Positions 1,644 through 9,045 of a DNA stretch of 9,045 nt are shown here, in pieces. The translations under genes were made by a program, and so were the position numbers. The notes below the pieces were generated by a model. It did not search any database. It had not been told where the DNA came from and was given only the letters and a program-made list of their open reading frames with translations. The DNA comes from Phycisphaerae bacterium (GTDB lineage: Bacteria > Planctomycetota > Phycisphaerae > Phycisphaerales > UBA1924). Each line of letters opens with the position of its first letter. Position 1 is the first letter of the stretch. Where the stretch lies: positions 1 to 9,045 of the forward strand of contig JAEUIX010000213.1 in assembly GCA_016794945.1 (NCBI GenBank), written 5' to 3'.

Positions 1644-2675
1644 TCAGGCGTCGAGATCGTTCTCGAGCGTGGACTTGATGAGTTCGATGTTGTCGAGGAA
1701 GATGGCGGTGCCTCGGGCAACGCAGGTGAGCGGGTCGTCCGCGATGCGGACGGTCAGCCCGGTGGCGTTCTGGAAGACGGTGCCGATGCCGCGGAGCAGC
1801 GCGCCGCCGCCGGCGAGGGTGATGCCGTTCTCGACGAGGTCGGCGGCGAGTTCGGGCTCGGCGCGTTCGAGGGTGCGGGTGACGGCGTCGGTGATGGCGC
1901 TGACGGGCTCCTGGAGGGCCTCGCGGATCTCCTCGCTGGTGACGACGGTCTTGCGCGGCAGTCCGCTGATCATGTCGCGCCCGCGAACCTCCATGGTGGT
2001 CTCGTCGCCGACGGGCGCGGCCGAACCGATGTCGATCTTGATGCGTTCGGCGGTCTGCTCGCCGATCATGAGGTTGTAGGTCTTCTTCATGTGGTTGATG
2101 ATGGCCTCGTCGAGGTCATCGCCCGCCACGCGGAGGCTCTCGCAGACCGCGATGTCGCCGAGCGAGAGGATGGCGATATCGGAGGTGCCCCCGCCGATGT
2201 CGACGATCATGGACGCCTGCGGTTCGGTCCAGGGCAGGCCGGCGCCGATGCCGGCGGCCAGCGGCTGCTCGCAGAGGAAGGTGCGGCGGGCGCCGGCGCG
2301 TTCGGCCGAGTCGATGACCGCGCGTTTCTCGACGGCGGTGATGCCGCCCGGAACGGAGATGACCACCCGGGGGCCGATGAGCCGCCGGCGGCCGTTGACC
2401 TTGCGGATGAAGTACGAGAGCATCGCCTCGGTGATCTCGAAGTCGCTGATCACGCCCTCCTTGAGCGGGCGGATGGCGGTGATCGCGCCGGGCGTCTTGC
2501 CGAGCATCTCCTTGGCGACCCAGCCGACGGCCTGGCCGTTGTACAGCACCTGGTTGGTGCCCTTGCGCACTGCGACCACCGAGGGCTCGTTGAGCACGAT
2601 GCCCTGCCCGCGCACCGCCACCAGCGTGTTGCACGTGCCCAGGTCGATCCCCATGTCGACGCTGAACATCCCCAT
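1644..2675 (-). CDS. mreB: Rod shape-determining protein MreB (bacterial actin)
   Basis: Actin-fold ATPase that forms membrane-associated filaments and guides the lateral wall-synthesis machinery. Numbered from the ATG at 2673-2675 (343 residues, normal for MreB), it shows the phosphate-1 motif DMGIDLGTCNTLV (residues 7-19), the conserved GIVLNEPSVVA (25-35), the phosphate-2 motif VDIGGGTSD (158-166) and the adenosine motif LAGGGALLRG (287-296). Most MreBs carry DLGTANT, and here the alanine is cysteine. The N-terminal GMFSVDMG is compatible with the amphipathic or hydrophobic membrane-binding end of the family. The true start may be a CTG at 2697-2699, which adds eight residues (LGFFSDQL). 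An AAGGAG sits 7 bases before that CTG, while no ribosome-binding site is placed properly for the ATG at 2675 or the one at 2669. First gene of the mreBCD operon. Confidence 0.96.
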   Translation of the reverse strand: MGMFSVDMGIDLGTCNTLVAVRGQGIVLNEPSVVAVRKGTNQVLYNGQAVGWVAKEMLGKTPGAITAIRPLKEGVISDFEITEAMLSYFIRKVNGRRRLIGPRVVISVPGGITAVEKRAVIDSAERAGARRTFLCEQPLAAGIGAGLPWTEPQASMIVDIGGGTSDIAILSLGDIAVCESLRVAGDDLDEAIINHMKKTYNLMIGEQTAERIKIDIGSAAPVGDETTMEVRGRDMISGLPRKTVVTSEEIREALQEPVSAITDAVTRTLERAEPELAADLVENGITLAGGGALLRGIGTVFQNATGLTVRIADDPLTCVARGTAIFLDNIELIKSTLENDLDA

Positions 2676-4044: not shown

Positions 4045-4821
4045 ATGCTCAACGCCATGACTTCCAGCTTCGTCGCGCGACTGCGGGCCCAGGACGAGGC
4101 CGCGTGGTTCGAATTGTGGGAAACGTTCGGCCCGGTGCTGCGCGCCCAGCTGACGAAGTGGGGCAAGGGGCGGATCGGGCCCGAGACGGTGCGTGACCTG
4201 TCGCAGGAGACGATGGCGGCATTGAGCGACTCGATCGACCGGTACGACCCGGCCAAGGGGGCCCGGTTCTCGACCTGGCTCCTGGCGATCGCCAAGCACG
4301 TGCTCGGGGACGAGATGGACCGTCGCATGGCCCAGAAGCGGGGGGGCAGCGGGGCGGGATCGAGTTCCAAGGCGATCGGGCGGAACGTGTCCCTGGACGA
4401 GTCGTGGATGCTGGACGGCGCAGCGAGGTCGGGGCCGGGGCCGGACGCGGAGTACGAACTGGCGGTGTTCCGCGCCAAAGTGCACGCGGCGCTGCGCATG
4501 ACAGAGAAAGCCAGCGATCTGGTCGATTTCGAGGTCTACCGGATGCGCGTGCTGGAGGGCCGTCCCGGCAAGGATGTGGCCGACGCGATGGGCATGAGCG
4601 AGCCGACGGTCAGCCGGCGGCTGGCGAAGGTGCGCGACCTGCTTCGGTCGAGCCTGGCGCAGGTGGTCGCGACCTATTCGTTCACCGAGGAGGAACTGCA
4701 GGAAGCCGCCCGAAACGGGTTGAACCTCGCCCCCAACAAGGAGGGCGACTCGCTGTTCGACGAGGCCGTCGGCGAGATCTTCCGGCACGGAAAAGACGCC
4801 GAGCGCCGACGGCCCGAATAA
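4045..4821 (+). CDS. ECF-like sigma-70 family RNA polymerase sigma factor
   Basis: Redirects RNA polymerase to a specific promoter set. The 258-residue product contains sigma region 2 at about residues 8-97, with FVARLRAQDEAAWFEL, RDLSQETMAAL (region 2.2) and FSTWLLAIAKHVLGDEMDRR (2.3-2.4). A long linker of about 50 residues includes SLDESW. Region 4 spans about 145-204, with the helix-turn-helix GKDVADAMGMSEPTVSRRLAKVRDLLR. A C-terminal extension of about 54 residues (YSFTEEELQEAARNGL and beyond) is absent from minimal ECF factors. In region 2.2 the usual D-A-E-D is T48-V49-R50-D51, so one or two core-binding acidic residues are lost. No anti-sigma gene is adjacent, and a membrane Ser/Thr kinase gene follows 75 bases later. 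The start could be ATG 4045 or the in-frame ATG 4057 (4 residues shorter). Neither has a clear ribosome-binding site. The frame open upstream of 4045 is antisense to the coiled-coil gene. Confidence 0.92.
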   Translation: MLNAMTSSFVARLRAQDEAAWFELWETFGPVLRAQLTKWGKGRIGPETVRDLSQETMAALSDSIDRYDPAKGARFSTWLLAIAKHVLGDEMDRRMAQKRGGSGAGSSSKAIGRNVSLDESWMLDGAARSGPGPDAEYELAVFRAKVHAALRMTEKASDLVDFEVYRMRVLEGRPGKDVADAMGMSEPTVSRRLAKVRDLLRSSLAQVVATYSFTEEELQEAARNGLNLAPNKEGDSLFDEAVGEIFRHGKDAERRRPE

Positions 4822-4840
4822 TCCTCCGTTCGCCGGCGAC

Positions 4841-4861
4841 CCGGCCCGCTGTTCGGGCCGG
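4841..4861. repeat. Stem-loop between sigma factor and kinase genes
   Basis: Perfect 8-bp arms (CCGGCCCG and CGGGCCGG) flank a 5-base loop, 20 bases after the sigma stop codon. AAACCGGGG follows, not a T run, so it is not a standard intrinsic terminator. It could weaken read-through or stabilise the upstream mRNA end. Function is inferred only from position. Confidence 0.4.
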
Positions 4862-4896
4862 AAACCGGGGCCGGGGCGAGTCGTTGGGGTCTGGCC

Positions 4897-7203
4897 ATGG
4901 CAACCGCCTTGTCGATCGGCATCCCGGCGCTGGTGATCGGCGTGCCGCTGCTGATCATCGCCATCATCTACATCGTGGTGCCGACGTTCCGTGGCATCGG
5001 ATGGGTGTTCCGGCAGGTGTTCCGGTTCATCGGGGCGATGGTGACGGACGTCGTGCGGCTGGCGGGGGTGGCGATCACGGCCGTGGTCCTGAGCTTCCTG
5101 GCCCTGGCGAGCGTGGTGATGGGGCGATGGTCCGCGGCCCAGCACTACGGAAGGGCGATTCAGGGTGAGTTCGGCGCCGGCGGCGCGGCGATCTACCGGC
5201 TGGCGATCGGGCACTGGGCGCGACTGTTCTGCGCTGAGTCTCTGGTGGAAGGGATCGAACAGCGCGTGCCGCAGGCGGTAGCGGCGGCGCCCGGAGCGAC
5301 GGCGGCGCCGCGGGCGTTGCCCGCGGGCCCCGTGCGGGGCGCGGGCGAGAACGCGCCGCCGGCGCGGGCCGGGCAGTTCGACGGGTACGAGATCATCGGC
5401 ACGCTTCCGGGCGGCGGTTCGGGCGGGCGGCTGTACGTGGCGCGGCCGACGGCGATGAAGCAGGCGGCGTTCGAGCGGCAGGGGTTCGGGGCGATCGGCA
5501 CCGTGGGCGACGTGGTCATCAAGAGTTTTTCGGTGCGGGAAGGTTCGAGCCTGCCGCAGATCGTGCGAGAGAGCCGGGCGCTGGAGGCGGCCAAGAAACT
5601 CGGCCTGGTGCTGGAGCACGAACTGACCCCGGAGCGGTTCTTCTACGTCATGCGGTACGTGCCGGGCGACTCGCTGGGGATCGTGGCGACGCGCCTGCAC
5701 GCCGCCAGCGGCACCGGGGGCCTGGACGACGCGGGGTTGCGCCGGGTGATCGGCTACGCCGTGGACCTGGTGTCGACGCTCGATCAGTACCACCGCTCCG
5801 GATTGTGGCACAAAGACATCAAGCCGGACAACATCATCGTCAGCACGCTCGACGGGCGGGCCCACCTGGTTGACTTCGGCCTTCTGACCCCGATGCGATC
5901 GAGCCTGACGCTGACGACCCACGGCACGGAGTACTTCCGCGACCCCGAGATGGTGCGCATGGCGCTCAAGGGCGTCAAGGTCGCGGAGGTGGACGGGGGC
6001 CGGTTCGACGTGTACGGCGCGGGCGCCGTGCTGTTCTCGATCGTCGAAAACTCGTTCCCGGCGCACGGCGGCCTGTCGCAGATCACGCGCCGATGCCCCG
6101 ACGCGGTGCGGTGGATCGTTCGGCGCGCCATGGCCGACTACGACAAGCGATACCCCACGGCCGCGCTGATGCTCGCCGACCTTCGGTGCGTCGCCGGTGC
6201 GCCGGATCCGTACGCGGTGAAACCCGCGGATCTACCCAGCATGTCCAACGCGGCGGCCCTGCCCGTCGAGGCGGCGGTGGGGGCCGGGGCGGCCGCCGGG
6301 GTTGGGGCGTTCGGCGGGCCGGAGATGATGGTGGCCGGGCCGGCGCGGTTCACCCCGGTCGGCCCGGTGGCGGCGGCGGCGGTGCGTGCGCGCCCGATCG
6401 GCGTGAGCGCCGAGGAGCAGGTCCGTCGCGCGCGTCAGCGTGCGCAGGAGCGCAGCCAGCGGGCGCAGGGCCGCTTCGCCCGGCGCGGCAGCGACGCCGC
6501 CGTTCCGCGCATGCCAACCGGGATCAACGCGGGCGTCGTCGTCGCCATCGTTTTGTTCCTGGCGTTCGGCGGTCTCGTCGCCAGCGGGCTGGTGTTCACG
6601 TCCCGCTCGGCCGTCACCGTCGGCGCGCCGAGCGAGGATCGCCCCGCGGCGGTGCCGCCGATCGAGGTTGTGATGGCGACCGGGAGCGCGACCGACGGCC
6701 CGGCACCCGTGCCGGCGAGTCTGCGCGACCAGCGCGCCGCCCGCCGCGCGGCCGATCGGCCTGCGACAGTCGGCGGCCTGCCGATCATGATCATGCGCGA
6801 GCCGCTGGCGTTCGACCCGGCCTTCGAGCCGACAGCTCGGCTTCAGGTTGGTCGGCTTCGCGATGCGGGCTTTACCGTCGTTGCGGACGAGGCGGACGGG
6901 TCCAGCCCCGGCGACCGCGACACCGAGGCGATCAAGGCTGCCACCGAGGCCGCGGCCGAGCTGCGGCGGGCAGTCGGCGTTTCGCCTCTAGGCGGTGCGC
7001 AGGCCCGCGCAGCGGTCGAGGCGTGGCTTGCAGCGCAGGCCGGATCGGAACGGCTGGTGCGGCCGGGTGCGGTGGTCTGGTTCGCGCGGCATTCCAACGA
7101 CCCGGCTCGCATGATGGCGTGGGTGGTGGCCGGCCCCGGGCTTGACGCAGGGGCGCTTCGCGCGGCCCGGGCCGCGCTCACGGTGACCGAGCGAGCCAAC
7201 TGA
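4897..7203 (+). CDS. Transmembrane Ser/Thr protein kinase
   Basis: Hanks-type kinase predicted to phosphorylate Ser/Thr on partner proteins at the inner membrane. In the 768-residue product, hydrophobic helices lie near 5-28 and 53-76, then a helical region (77-128) and an Ala/Pro linker. The kinase domain runs from about 164 to 432: glycine-rich loop PGGGSGG (171-177), beta-3 lysine K209 in VVIKSF, catalytic loop HKDIKPDN (305-312, D307 and N312), DFG at 326-328, DPE in place of APE at 349-351, structural D371, and an arginine near 418 before YPTA. About 25 extra residues separate the glycine loop from K209. After an Ala/Gly-rich linker and a basic stretch (505-530) comes a third membrane helix (about 545-567). 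A C-terminal domain of about 200 residues that I do not recognise follows and is probably extracytoplasmic, a candidate sensor. All catalytic residues are present, so activity is expected. HKD replaces the commoner HRD. The start ATG 4897 begins right before the first helix, with only a weak ribosome-binding site. It follows the sigma factor on the same strand. Confidence 0.93.
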   Translation: MATALSIGIPALVIGVPLLIIAIIYIVVPTFRGIGWVFRQVFRFIGAMVTDVVRLAGVAITAVVLSFLALASVVMGRWSAAQHYGRAIQGEFGAGGAAIYRLAIGHWARLFCAESLVEGIEQRVPQAVAAAPGATAAPRALPAGPVRGAGENAPPARAGQFDGYEIIGTLPGGGSGGRLYVARPTAMKQAAFERQGFGAIGTVGDVVIKSFSVREGSSLPQIVRESRALEAAKKLGLVLEHELTPERFFYVMRYVPGDSLGIVATRLHAASGTGGLDDAGLRRVIGYAVDLVSTLDQYHRSGLWHKDIKPDNIIVSTLDGRAHLVDFGLLTPMRSSLTLTTHGTEYFRDPEMVRMALKGVKVAEVDGGRFDVYGAGAVLFSIVENSFPAHGGLSQITRRCPDAVRWIVRRAMADYDKRYPTAALMLADLRCVAGAPDPYAVKPADLPSMSNAAALPVEAAVGAGAAAGVGAFGGPEMMVAGPARFTPVGPVAAAAVRARPIGVSAEEQVRRARQRAQERSQRAQGRFARRGSDAAVPRMPTGINAGVVVAIVLFLAFGGLVASGLVFTSRSAVTVGAPSEDRPAAVPPIEVVMATGSATDGPAPVPASLRDQRAARRAADRPATVGGLPIMIMREPLAFDPAFEPTARLQVGRLRDAGFTVVADEADGSSPGDRDTEAIKAATEAAAELRRAVGVSPLGGAQARAAVEAWLAAQAGSERLVRPGAVVWFARHSNDPARMMAWVVAGPGLDAGALRAARAALTVTERAN

Positions 7204-7247: not shown

Positions 7248-9045
7248 ATGGAAGCGACGCGTCGCCTAGCGCACATGGCCCGACGGCGTGCGCTGCGGCG
7301 CGCGGCGGTTCGGGCCCTTGGCGCGGCGTTGCTGATCGGGGCGGTCGCGGGCTTCGCGGCGGTGTGTGTTTTCAAGGTCGCAGGCTGGACCAGCCCCTGG
7401 GCCTGGCCCCTTGGCGGCGGTCTGGCGGTGGCGGCGATGGTGGGTCTGGTCGTCGCTTGGTCGAGTCGCCCGAGCCCATTGCAGGCGGTGGCAGAGGTCG
7501 ACCGCGTTCTGAACACCCAGGATCGGCTCGCGACGGGTCTTCTGCTCGACTCCGCGCCGGAGCGCGACACAGGGTTTGTCGCCTGGGCGCGCCAGGAAGC
7601 GGATGAGCGTGCCGAAACCGTCGATCTTTCACGCGTCATGCGGCCGGTTTTCGGCTGGCAGTGGCGAACGTGGCCGGTGATCACGATCGCCGCGGCGGCG
7701 GTGGGCATCTGGGCGCCGACGGATCCGTTCGGGTGGCTGACCGCACGCGGCCCGGGGCAGATTGCTCGAGCGACGCCGGAAGAGGTCCGATCTGCCGCGG
7801 CGGACCTCGCGGCGGTTCGGCCAGACCCGCCCGTGATCGACCCGAATGCCCCGTCTGAGACGGAGGACCATCGCCACGCCGAAGCGCTCCGAGAGATCGA
7901 ACGGCAACTGCTCGAGGGCAAGTCGACGCCGCGCCAGGCCCGCCAGCAGGCGGCGACCGCGCTGGAGTCCATGGCTGCGGAGGCGGAACGCCGGTCGAAG
8001 CAGGCCGCCGCCGCGCGCGATGCGCTCCGCGACCGTCTGGCTCGGACCGGTGCTGCCGATCGCAGCGGTCCGGCGGAACTGAGGCGGGCGATTCGGTCTG
8101 GCGATGCGGAGGCGGTGCGGGATTCGGTGGAACGGCTGGCGCGAGAGGCCGGCGGCTTGTCGCCCCAGGATCGTGCGGCGATCGCTGAACAATTGGAAGA
8201 GGCGGCACGGCAGATCGACCGGCCCAGCGCCGCGACCGGGCCCGCCGATCAGCCCGCACCCGACGTGCCGGCGGAGGCGGCCGGTTCGGATGATCCGCAG
8301 CGGATCGAAGAAGCGCTCCGGCGGTCCGGCATGGACCCCGCGCAGGCAGCGGCCCGGGCCCAGCTACTGGCCGAGCAGAACCGGCAGGCGCGGGCACGAG
8401 AGGATGCAGATCGACAGGCACGCGAACTGTCCGACGCGATGCGCGACGCGGCCAATGAACTGCGTCAGCCGGCGCCGCCGCCCTCACCGCAACGAAAGCC
8501 CGGCGAACCGCAGCGAGGGCCGGACGAACGTCCGTCGGATGGGCGGTCGCCGCCGCGGGATCAGCCGCCGCAGCCGAACCCGGCGTCGCCGCCTGCTGGC
8601 AAGGACTCGAATCCCTCGACCACACGCGATCATGCGGAGCGGCCGCCGTCAACGCCGACTCCCGGCGGTCGGCCTGGCGACACCCCGTCCAAACCGTCCA
8701 GCCCCCCCAGTGGTTCGCCTCCTGGCGAACGACCCGCCGATCAGACGCCAGCTAAGCCCGGCGACCCCGGCGGCGGAGACACGCCGAAGTCACAGCCCTC
8801 CTCTCCCGACGCGGCCAAGAAGCCTGAGCCGACTCCGGGTGACTCGCCGGAACGGCAGCCGACCTCGGCCCCGTCACAGGGGCAACCAGGACCGACTCAA
8901 CAACAGCCGGGCTCGGGCAAGTCGGGCCCCAATCCGGAATCGACAGGTTCAACTTCGGCCGCGAAGGACCAACAGGAGCGCCCAGGGAACCAGCCTTCGG
9001 CTCAGCCCGCCGACAACCCCACCAAGAGCGGCGGGGAGAAGTCAG
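7248..9045 (+). CDS. Large membrane protein with coiled coil and Pro-rich tail (partial, 3' end missing)
   Basis: Open for 599 codons from ATG 7248 to the window edge with no stop, so the C-terminus is unknown. The N-terminus is strongly basic (residues 5-22, many Arg). Membrane helices follow near 22-42, 53-71 and 142-157. Between the second and third lies AVAEVDRVLNTQDRLATGLLL (80-100). This pattern of a dimer-like helix with D-R-L near T-G/A-L recalls DUF4175-type membrane proteins and similar uncharacterised proteins found near MoxR/DUF58 genes. That assignment is tentative. Residues about 175-405 are charged, Ala/Gln/Glu/Arg-rich and probably coiled coil (EALREIERQLLEG, ERLAREAGG, AEQLEEAARQ). 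From about 408 to the edge the chain is low-complexity, dominated by Pro, Gly, Ser, Gln, Asp and Lys, and looks disordered. The gene begins 44 bases after the kinase stop and may be co-transcribed. No clear ribosome-binding site is seen, and ATG 7275 is an alternative start. Confidence 0.85.
   Translation, partial: MEATRRLAHMARRRALRRAAVRALGAALLIGAVAGFAAVCVFKVAGWTSPWAWPLGGGLAVAAMVGLVVAWSSRPSPLQAVAEVDRVLNTQDRLATGLLLDSAPERDTGFVAWARQEADERAETVDLSRVMRPVFGWQWRTWPVITIAAAAVGIWAPTDPFGWLTARGPGQIARATPEEVRSAAADLAAVRPDPPVIDPNAPSETEDHRHAEALREIERQLLEGKSTPRQARQQAATALESMAAEAERRSKQAAAARDALRDRLARTGAADRSGPAELRRAIRSGDAEAVRDSVERLAREAGGLSPQDRAAIAEQLEEAARQIDRPSAATGPADQPAPDVPAEAAGSDDPQRIEEALRRSGMDPAQAAARAQLLAEQNRQARAREDADRQARELSDAMRDAANELRQPAPPPSPQRKPGEPQRGPDERPSDGRSPPRDQPPQPNPASPPAGKDSNPSTTRDHAERPPSTPTPGGRPGDTPSKPSSPPSGSPPGERPADQTPAKPGDPGGGDTPKSQPSSPDAAKKPEPTPGDSPERQPTSAPSQGQPGPTQQQPGSGKSGPNPESTGSTSAAKDQQERPGNQPSAQPADNPTKSGGEKS

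Follow-up and report, generated by a model that had tools for sequence, protein, structure and literature searches.

Organization of the locus

The sequence studied here (the window) is the whole 9,045-nt stretch of contig JAEUIX010000213.1 from a Phycisphaerae bacterium. Its plus strand carries a gene for an extracytoplasmic function (ECF) sigma factor and, 75 nt past the sigma stop codon, a gene for a membrane Ser/Thr kinase. A coiled-coil gene and mreB are found on the opposite strand. The sigma-kinase pair is an old planctomycete family that is spread across much of the phylum. New in this analysis is a conserved promoter, TGAAAY-N14-TCSSAANNA, which points toward the coiled-coil gene; some members of the family also have one toward the sigma gene itself. 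The features are:

4045..4821, plus strand: ECF sigma factor, 258 aa (Sigma70_r2 and Sigma70_r4_2 over the Pfam cut-off)
4180..4212, plus strand: sigma region 2.2, P46-E47-T48-V49-R50-D51-L52-S53-Q54-E55-T56 (T48 codon acg, 4186-4188)
4678..4818, plus strand: C-terminal sigma extension, YSFTxxE ... FDEAV (S212 and F238 without change on the 137-tip tree described below)
4897..7203, plus strand: membrane Ser/Thr kinase, 768 aa, with N-terminal hydrophobic helices, catalytic domain, helix 545-564 and outer alpha/beta domain
5359..6276, plus strand: kinase catalytic domain, residues 155-460, with an invariant activation/P+1 segment
3976..4004, minus strand: predicted sigma-dependent promoter of the divergent coiled-coil gene, CGAAA-N15-CCCCAACAA
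2875..3894, minus strand: divergent coiled-coil gene, 339 aa, with an N-terminal hydrophobic segment and a coiled coil (conserved neighbour, predicted target)
4711..4739, plus strand: second match to the promoter pattern, within the 3′ end of the sigma gene and 157 nt upstream of the kinase start
1644..2675, minus strand: mreB, a common neighbour past the coiled-coil gene

The window sigma is also over the cut-off of TIGR02937. The sigma3 family is not listed, i.e. the protein has sigma2 and sigma4 only, as is characteristic of group 4 (ECF) sigma factors. A fold search with the sigma model shows an ordinary ECF fold (matches to sigmaE, AlgU and SigH), and a sequence search of the PDB yielded five general sigma factors. 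The start at 4045 agrees with that of relatives, where residues 1–3 are M, L and N in 111, 112 and 115 of 121 rows. Among the best 80 of 263 confirmed stretches, the closest named contig (L001, 97% identity) is from a Phycisphaeraceae metagenome-assembled genome.

The original prediction, made from the window alone, described T48-V49-R50-D51 in region 2.2 of the sigma factor, a C-terminal extension, a full-length membrane Ser/Thr kinase gene directly downstream and the absence of an anti-sigma gene. The motif and the gene order are as described. The extension encompasses residues 212–258, with a helix at positions 232–255 in the predicted structure. Pfam gave no anti-sigma domain in five window proteins (sigma, kinase, MreB, coiled-coil protein and the product of the gene at 7248), a test that did not include an mreC-like open reading frame. 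The coiled-coil protein was considered as an anti-sigma factor, and nothing was found in favour of this.

Distribution of the sigma factor and the kinase

Relatives of the sigma factor were collected by a pattern scan, from which the best 80 of 263 confirmed stretches were retained, and by a profile built from 26 relatives, all of them T48 proteins. The pattern itself contains T48, and thus its 80 loci are unable to test this residue. In viral contigs 15 stretches matched the pattern and none was confirmed.

The kinase gene is immediately downstream of sigma at all of the 80 pattern-found loci and in 52 of 65 profile-found rows. The other 13 rows include five at contig ends, two with the kinase 2.0 and 3.4 kb away, and six with none in the fetched flank. 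(It should be noted that there are duplicates among the 65 rows: L131 and L132 are one place, L081–L084 are four of the pattern-found loci, and there is further overlap with the pattern loci.)

In the class sample, 28 of 248 genomes have the sigma family by the profile search; the matches that follow are below 50 bits and one copy (G141) is split across two contigs. In the phylum sample it is found in 49 of 343 genomes; these include a distant branch at ~213–256 bits and fragments at ~110–126 bits. A kinase-domain profile detected the family kinase in 48 of the same 343 genomes, and 47 genomes have both (Fisher p = 3e-54, kinship ignored). Sigma without the kinase is seen in G394 and G117, and the kinase without sigma in G505. 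The G117 contig stops shortly past sigma, with part of the kinase still on it (L098). Each genome in the samples searched has one family sigma and one family kinase.

Five genomes (G380, G365, G463, G498 and G316) show no family kinase in the fetched flank of sigma (2.9–5 kb downstream) but have the kinase on another contig. Thus, the co-occurrence goes beyond operon inheritance. In two others (G546 and G350) a contig end adjoins sigma, and these are therefore uninformative on linkage. Sigma and kinase very probably act together.

The sigma open reading frame is interrupted at two loci, by two overlapping frames in L150 (G482) and by one internal stop codon in L118 (G294). Either an assembly error or decay may account for this.

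Threonine 48 in region 2.2

All 149 aligned rows have Thr at position 48, and 65 of them were profile-found and not obtained with the T48 pattern. The same holds for 79 of 79 resolved rows of an 80-protein set, which was collected with a distant member as the query and partly overlaps the first set. One fragment of the 80-protein set does not cover position 48, nor does the second of the two L150 fragments in the first set. A tree built from 137 distinct sequences, the window among them, places no change at T48, compared with 5 at V49, 18 at R50 and 13 at the median site. The original prediction had named as contrary evidence relatives beside the same kinase with D or E, or with no conserved Thr/Ser, at position 48, and no such exception appeared in either set. 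It had also suggested a test of whether T48 is conserved when the kinase is adjacent. This residue does not vary where the kinase is adjacent, but it is also retained at the six places without a family kinase in the fetched flank, five of whose genomes have the kinase on another contig. Conservation of T48 only beside the kinase is thus ruled out.

Other planctomycete ECF sigma factors differ at this position. In 42 resolved of 43 paralog rows, position 48 is D in 17, E in 7 and T in 4, and the rest include S, N and A (the 43 rows include two places twice, L112/L171 and L113/L172). Position 50 is acidic in 25 of the 43 paralog rows. Within the family the 149 rows have R, K or Q there in 144 cases, E and A in two each and L in one, with no T; the 79 resolved rows of the second set all have K, R or Q. 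From these residue counts in family and paralogs, the first acid of the DAED stretch is replaced by Thr and the third position is mostly basic or Gln, with D51 fixed. The earlier view that the acidic motif is lost therefore holds for positions 1 and 3 of DAED, and does not hold for D51 and E55, which remain.

A simple motif search shows kinase-like genes near a number of other planctomycete ECF sigma genes as well (L152, L154, L158, L166, L171, L173, L175–L178 and L182–L186). Of 16 distinct rows of such kinase-neighboured sigma factors, 13 still have an acidic residue (D or E) at the first or third DAED position. Thus, kinase pairing alone is not tied to loss of the motif.

The kinase

The window kinase matches the Pkinase family of Pfam (E-value = 3e-14). 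The 22 aligned kinase rows all share K209, H305-x-D307-x-K309, N312, D326-x-G328 and P350-E351, residues that would be expected of an active Hanks-type kinase. In the activation/P+1 segment, alignments of 22 and 19 rows show no variation in LTTHGTE..RDPE and almost none in the two intervening residues. This would suit a conserved substrate. The portion past the catalytic domain is highly variable in the 22-row alignment, as is expected of a sensor.

The predicted structure displays N-terminal helices at positions 2–74 and 78–110, a core at ~160–434, a helix at 545–564 and an alpha/beta domain at 628–761. The kinase had been described as a three-helix membrane protein. The model fits two putative membrane segments N-terminal and one C-terminal of the kinase domain.

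A conserved promoter element

The region between the sigma and coiled-coil genes has a strongly conserved element of the form TGAAAY-N14-TCSSAANNA. Toward the coiled-coil gene it reads TGAAAT-N14-TCCCAANNA, at a median distance of 83.5 nt from the gene start. Promoters were scored by cross-validation at 86 loci, taken from 110 sigma loci after exclusion of repeats, of 12 loci where no coiled-coil homologue was matched and of 3 where it is more than 700 nt away. At a score of 12, a promoter toward the coiled-coil gene is present at 85 of the 86 loci, versus 5 of 430 shuffles, and a promoter toward sigma at 37 of the 86, versus 7 of 430 shuffles. A chance origin of the element at this locus is thereby ruled out.

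The element was at first read toward sigma, as TTGGGAA/GATTTCA. This reading was dropped for that of the opposite strand because the distance to the coiled-coil gene is tighter than that to sigma and because the same rule then applies in both directions. In the distant branch of the family a sigma-directed site with a score of at least 13.8 is found 3–50 nt upstream of the aligned sigma start at 11 of 17 places. Sites scoring at least 12 and directed away from sigma are present at 11 of 17 intermediate members (L114–L130).

Whole genomes were also scanned, i.e. 18 hand-picked sigma-bearing genomes and 18 of the 176 genomes of the class that have no sigma match. The pattern YGAAA-N15-YCSSAANNA gave 162 matches in the sigma-bearing genomes versus 53 for the reversed pattern (~3-fold), and 168 versus 133 in the genomes without sigma (~1.3-fold). 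With the spacing shortened by three, the same sigma-bearing genomes gave 78 versus 58 (~1.3-fold). From these sequence comparisons, the family sigma is likely to read the TGAAAY-N14-TCSSAANNA promoter.

The match within the sigma gene (4711–4739) is a full match to the pattern. In-gene matches are also present in G229 and G002. These may represent an internal promoter of the kinase gene or a coding coincidence.

The coiled-coil gene is a conserved neighbour at most of the 80 pattern-found loci by BLAST. It was sought in Phycisphaerae loci only, and some of those are without it. Its relatives frequently adjoin mreB and an mreC-like gene, and it is the strongest predicted target of sigma. The coiled-coil proteins of the window and of L217 gave no Pfam family over the cut-off and no match to PspA. 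The gene that follows the kinase (7248–9044, plus strand, open at the window end) encodes hydrophobic segments and then a long Pro/Ser/Gly-rich tail, and a BLAST relative is found in only part of the loci.

Genes behind the promoter sites

The predicted targets were surveyed at 90 loci of the 162 matches. Thirty of these were taken automatically and 60 were picked mainly from less fragmented genomes, not by gene content; a crude open reading frame caller was used. Out of 91 sites in the 90 loci, 41 are outside strongly coding frames and within 130 nt of a plausible start. The gene behind the site has a homologue behind another site in 19 of the 41 cases, and 4 of the 19 are the coiled-coil gene by which the motif was defined. 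Among control sites, 4 of 30 from genomes without sigma and 8 of 30 with the wrong spacing qualify, with no recurrence among their genes; with so few control genes, recurrence is less able to appear there.

The Pfam-tested examples of genes behind sites include DUF4870, a DrrA-type ABC ATPase, DUF4230, Toastrack (DUF4097), a BamE-like lipoprotein, bPH2, TM2 and an M48 peptidase. AIM24 and Band-7 are among those from a looser list. BLAST places relatives of DUF4870 behind sites in five genomes, three of which come solely from the looser list; DUF4230 recurs in three genomes and the ABC ATPase in two. A small membrane protein with a REIAAYIAEGS-type stretch near its end is behind a site in five genomes (L199, L202, L233, L241 and L265); L199, the sole one scanned, gave no Pfam family over the cut-off. 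A hydrophobic segment is present in 31 of the 41 proteins.

The M48 protein resembles HtpX, which is linked to envelope stress. Toastrack and Band-7 proteins are tied to the phage-shock response in the account of PMC11237479. On balance, the predicted target set inclines us toward an envelope-stress output of sigma.

Proposed mechanism and alternative explanations

Taken as a whole, the locus may represent a kinase-gated ECF envelope-stress sigma system of Planctomycetota, a proposal that we regard as tentative. The conservation, the co-occurrence, and the promoter and its distribution are observed; the phosphorylation, the direction of its effect and the signal are proposed. The outer domain of the membrane kinase probably senses the state of the envelope. 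The kinase would then phosphorylate its partner sigma, a step that we consider fairly probable, and this would enable the use of TGAAAY-N14-TCSSAANNA promoters. Sigma would then activate the coiled-coil gene opposite to it, together with a fairly small group of genes that mostly encode membrane proteins, and some members of the family would also transcribe their own operon. T48 is the best single guess for the decisive phosphosite, although that guess may well be wrong. It replaces the first acid of DxxDxxQE, the set of residues that contacts core polymerase as described in PMC13147305, and a phosphate on this Thr would bring the charge back. Basal affinity for core may be lowered by the basic side chain at position 50, with D51 and E55 keeping it above zero. 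The most far-reaching version of the proposal, a phospho-switch retained through much of the phylum, in which the kinase activates a weakened sigma through T48 (position 1, and not the ECF43 site) and which takes the place of anti-sigma or Psp control in running an envelope-stress regulon from TGAAAY-N14-TCSSAANNA promoters, is rather doubtful.

A number of observations weigh against this mechanism. D51 is kept in 149 of 149 and 79 of 79 rows, Q54 is invariant and position 55 is only E or D in the family. Thus, core binding is not obviously abolished and may occur without phosphorylation. T48 is located in the first turn of a predicted helix (positions 46–63), where its role could be structural. 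Its conservation comes from a single lineage, and T56, S185 (in the sigma4 region) and S212 (in the family-specific extension) are equally unchanging Ser/Thr residues on the 137-tip tree; T56 is also present in 14 of the 43 paralog rows. A sigma-directed site was not found in the window, in about half of the 86 loci or in the 17 intermediate members L114–L130 (best score 6.9). Both controls of the genome scans still show the ~1.3-fold excess. The target survey relied on picked loci and a crude caller; its first 30 true loci gave 16 qualifying genes, of which 8 recur and 4 of these 8 are the motif-defining coiled-coil gene. Hydrophobic segments are also seen in 2 of 4 and 3 of 8 control proteins. 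Sites also precede genes with cytoplasmic-looking products (L261, L270) and a gene for another ECF-like sigma (L260).

It is conceivable, but unlikely, that the pair is kinase-regulated through a phosphosite elsewhere, either S212/T214 of the extension, acting in kinase docking or as an autoinhibitory lid, or the linker between sigma2 and sigma4. EcfK of the ECF43 group is activated through T51 or linker T106 according to PMC13147305, so that sites beyond region 2.2 matter there, and S212/T214 and the linker are candidates here. On the 137-tip tree S212 has no changes and T214 has five; S212 is found in 1 of 21 aligned paralog rows, and the modelled extension includes a confident helix. The linker, however, is poorly conserved, and in the second set S212 is replaced by A in 2 of 80 rows and T214 is more variable, whereas T48 is invariant. 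A different explanation, which we also consider improbable, is that T48 is structural or is needed as Thr for core binding. The kinase would then act on another partner, e.g. the coiled-coil protein or the cell-shape machinery, with sigma controlled by transcription or by a tether to the kinase. The helical location of T48, the retention of D51, Q54 and E55/D55, and the persistence of T48 where the kinase gene has moved away would all agree with this, as would the conserved coiled-coil gene beside most pattern-found loci. Yet a structural position usually tolerates S, D or N, none of which occurs in the 149 and 79 partly overlapping rows, and the paralogs show D, E, S, N and A. In addition, sigma and kinase co-occur almost without exception, even when apart, and the coiled-coil gene is missing from some Phycisphaerae loci.

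The conserved promoter could also be read by another, more general sigma factor, with an unrelated regulon for the pair. The absence of sigma-directed sites in the window and in L114–L130 is consistent with this, and promoter and sigma could share a lineage without a causal connection. A matching site is nevertheless found beside the sigma gene itself in close as well as distant members, and the excess is ~3-fold in sigma-bearing genomes versus ~1.3-fold in those without sigma or with the wrong spacing. We consider this explanation quite improbable.

Comparison with known systems

The closest known parallels are the ECF43 pairs EcfP-PknT of Vibrio parahaemolyticus and EcfK-PknS of Xanthomonas citri. 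These resemble the window in that the neighbour of sigma is a membrane Ser/Thr kinase, that no anti-sigma gene is seen and that a Thr is inside the DAED stretch of region 2.2. In EcfP and EcfK the motif is replaced by STTA and QATE, and the phospho-Thr is the third residue as described in PMC8999054 and PMC13147305. The ECF43 site is thus position 3 (QTTA consensus), whereas the Thr of the window family is position 1 and position 3 is mostly basic or Gln. The ECF43 proteins have uncharged residues in place of the DxxD acids, with a negative charge at motif position 4 in 15.8% (PMC13147305); in the window family the first D is changed to T and the Asp at position 4 is invariant. The original prediction had carried the EcfP mechanism over to this sigma. 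The different position of the Thr and the retention of D51 speak against such a direct transfer, since the scheme seen in EcfP, where sigma is inactive for want of charge, does not apply as such. The family also differs from ECF43 in its predicted output and C-terminal extension.

Planctomycetes carry many ECF-kinase pairs. The planctomycete groups that PMC8999054 ties to Ser/Thr kinases are ECF59, ECF61, ECF62 and ECF217, for which control by phosphorylation has likewise been proposed. The same source gives DAED or a similar acidic motif for groups other than ECF43, and PMC8103513 names Ser as the target for ECF59 as well as for the original ECF60. Set against these published descriptions, the window family is distinguished by a Thr and by non-acidic residues at positions 1 and 3 in nearly all rows. 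In the sources cited, experimental support for direct phosphorylation of sigma by a neighbouring kinase is given only for ECF43 members. No description of the Phycisphaerae pair was found by title in the open-licence literature; a numbered ECF group may already include it.

The predicted output bears a likeness to the Psp/Lia response as outlined in PMC11237479, i.e. Toastrack (DUF4097), Band-7 and a membrane-anchored coiled-coil protein are among the predicted targets. No PspA or PspC family was found among the Pfam-scanned proteins, a result that does not extend to PspA elsewhere in the genomes. That response is described as controlled by PspF or a two-component system, whereas here an ECF sigma factor and a Ser/Thr kinase would take this role. 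The family offers a clean test case: each genome in the samples searched has a single sigma and a single kinase of the family, the invariant Thr is at another position of the motif than in ECF43, the promoter is defined and the candidate targets are few. If the proposal is correct, it would provide a phylum whose membranes are unusual with a circuit for envelope stress, and charge restoration by phosphate, as in ECF43, would have arisen at more than one residue.

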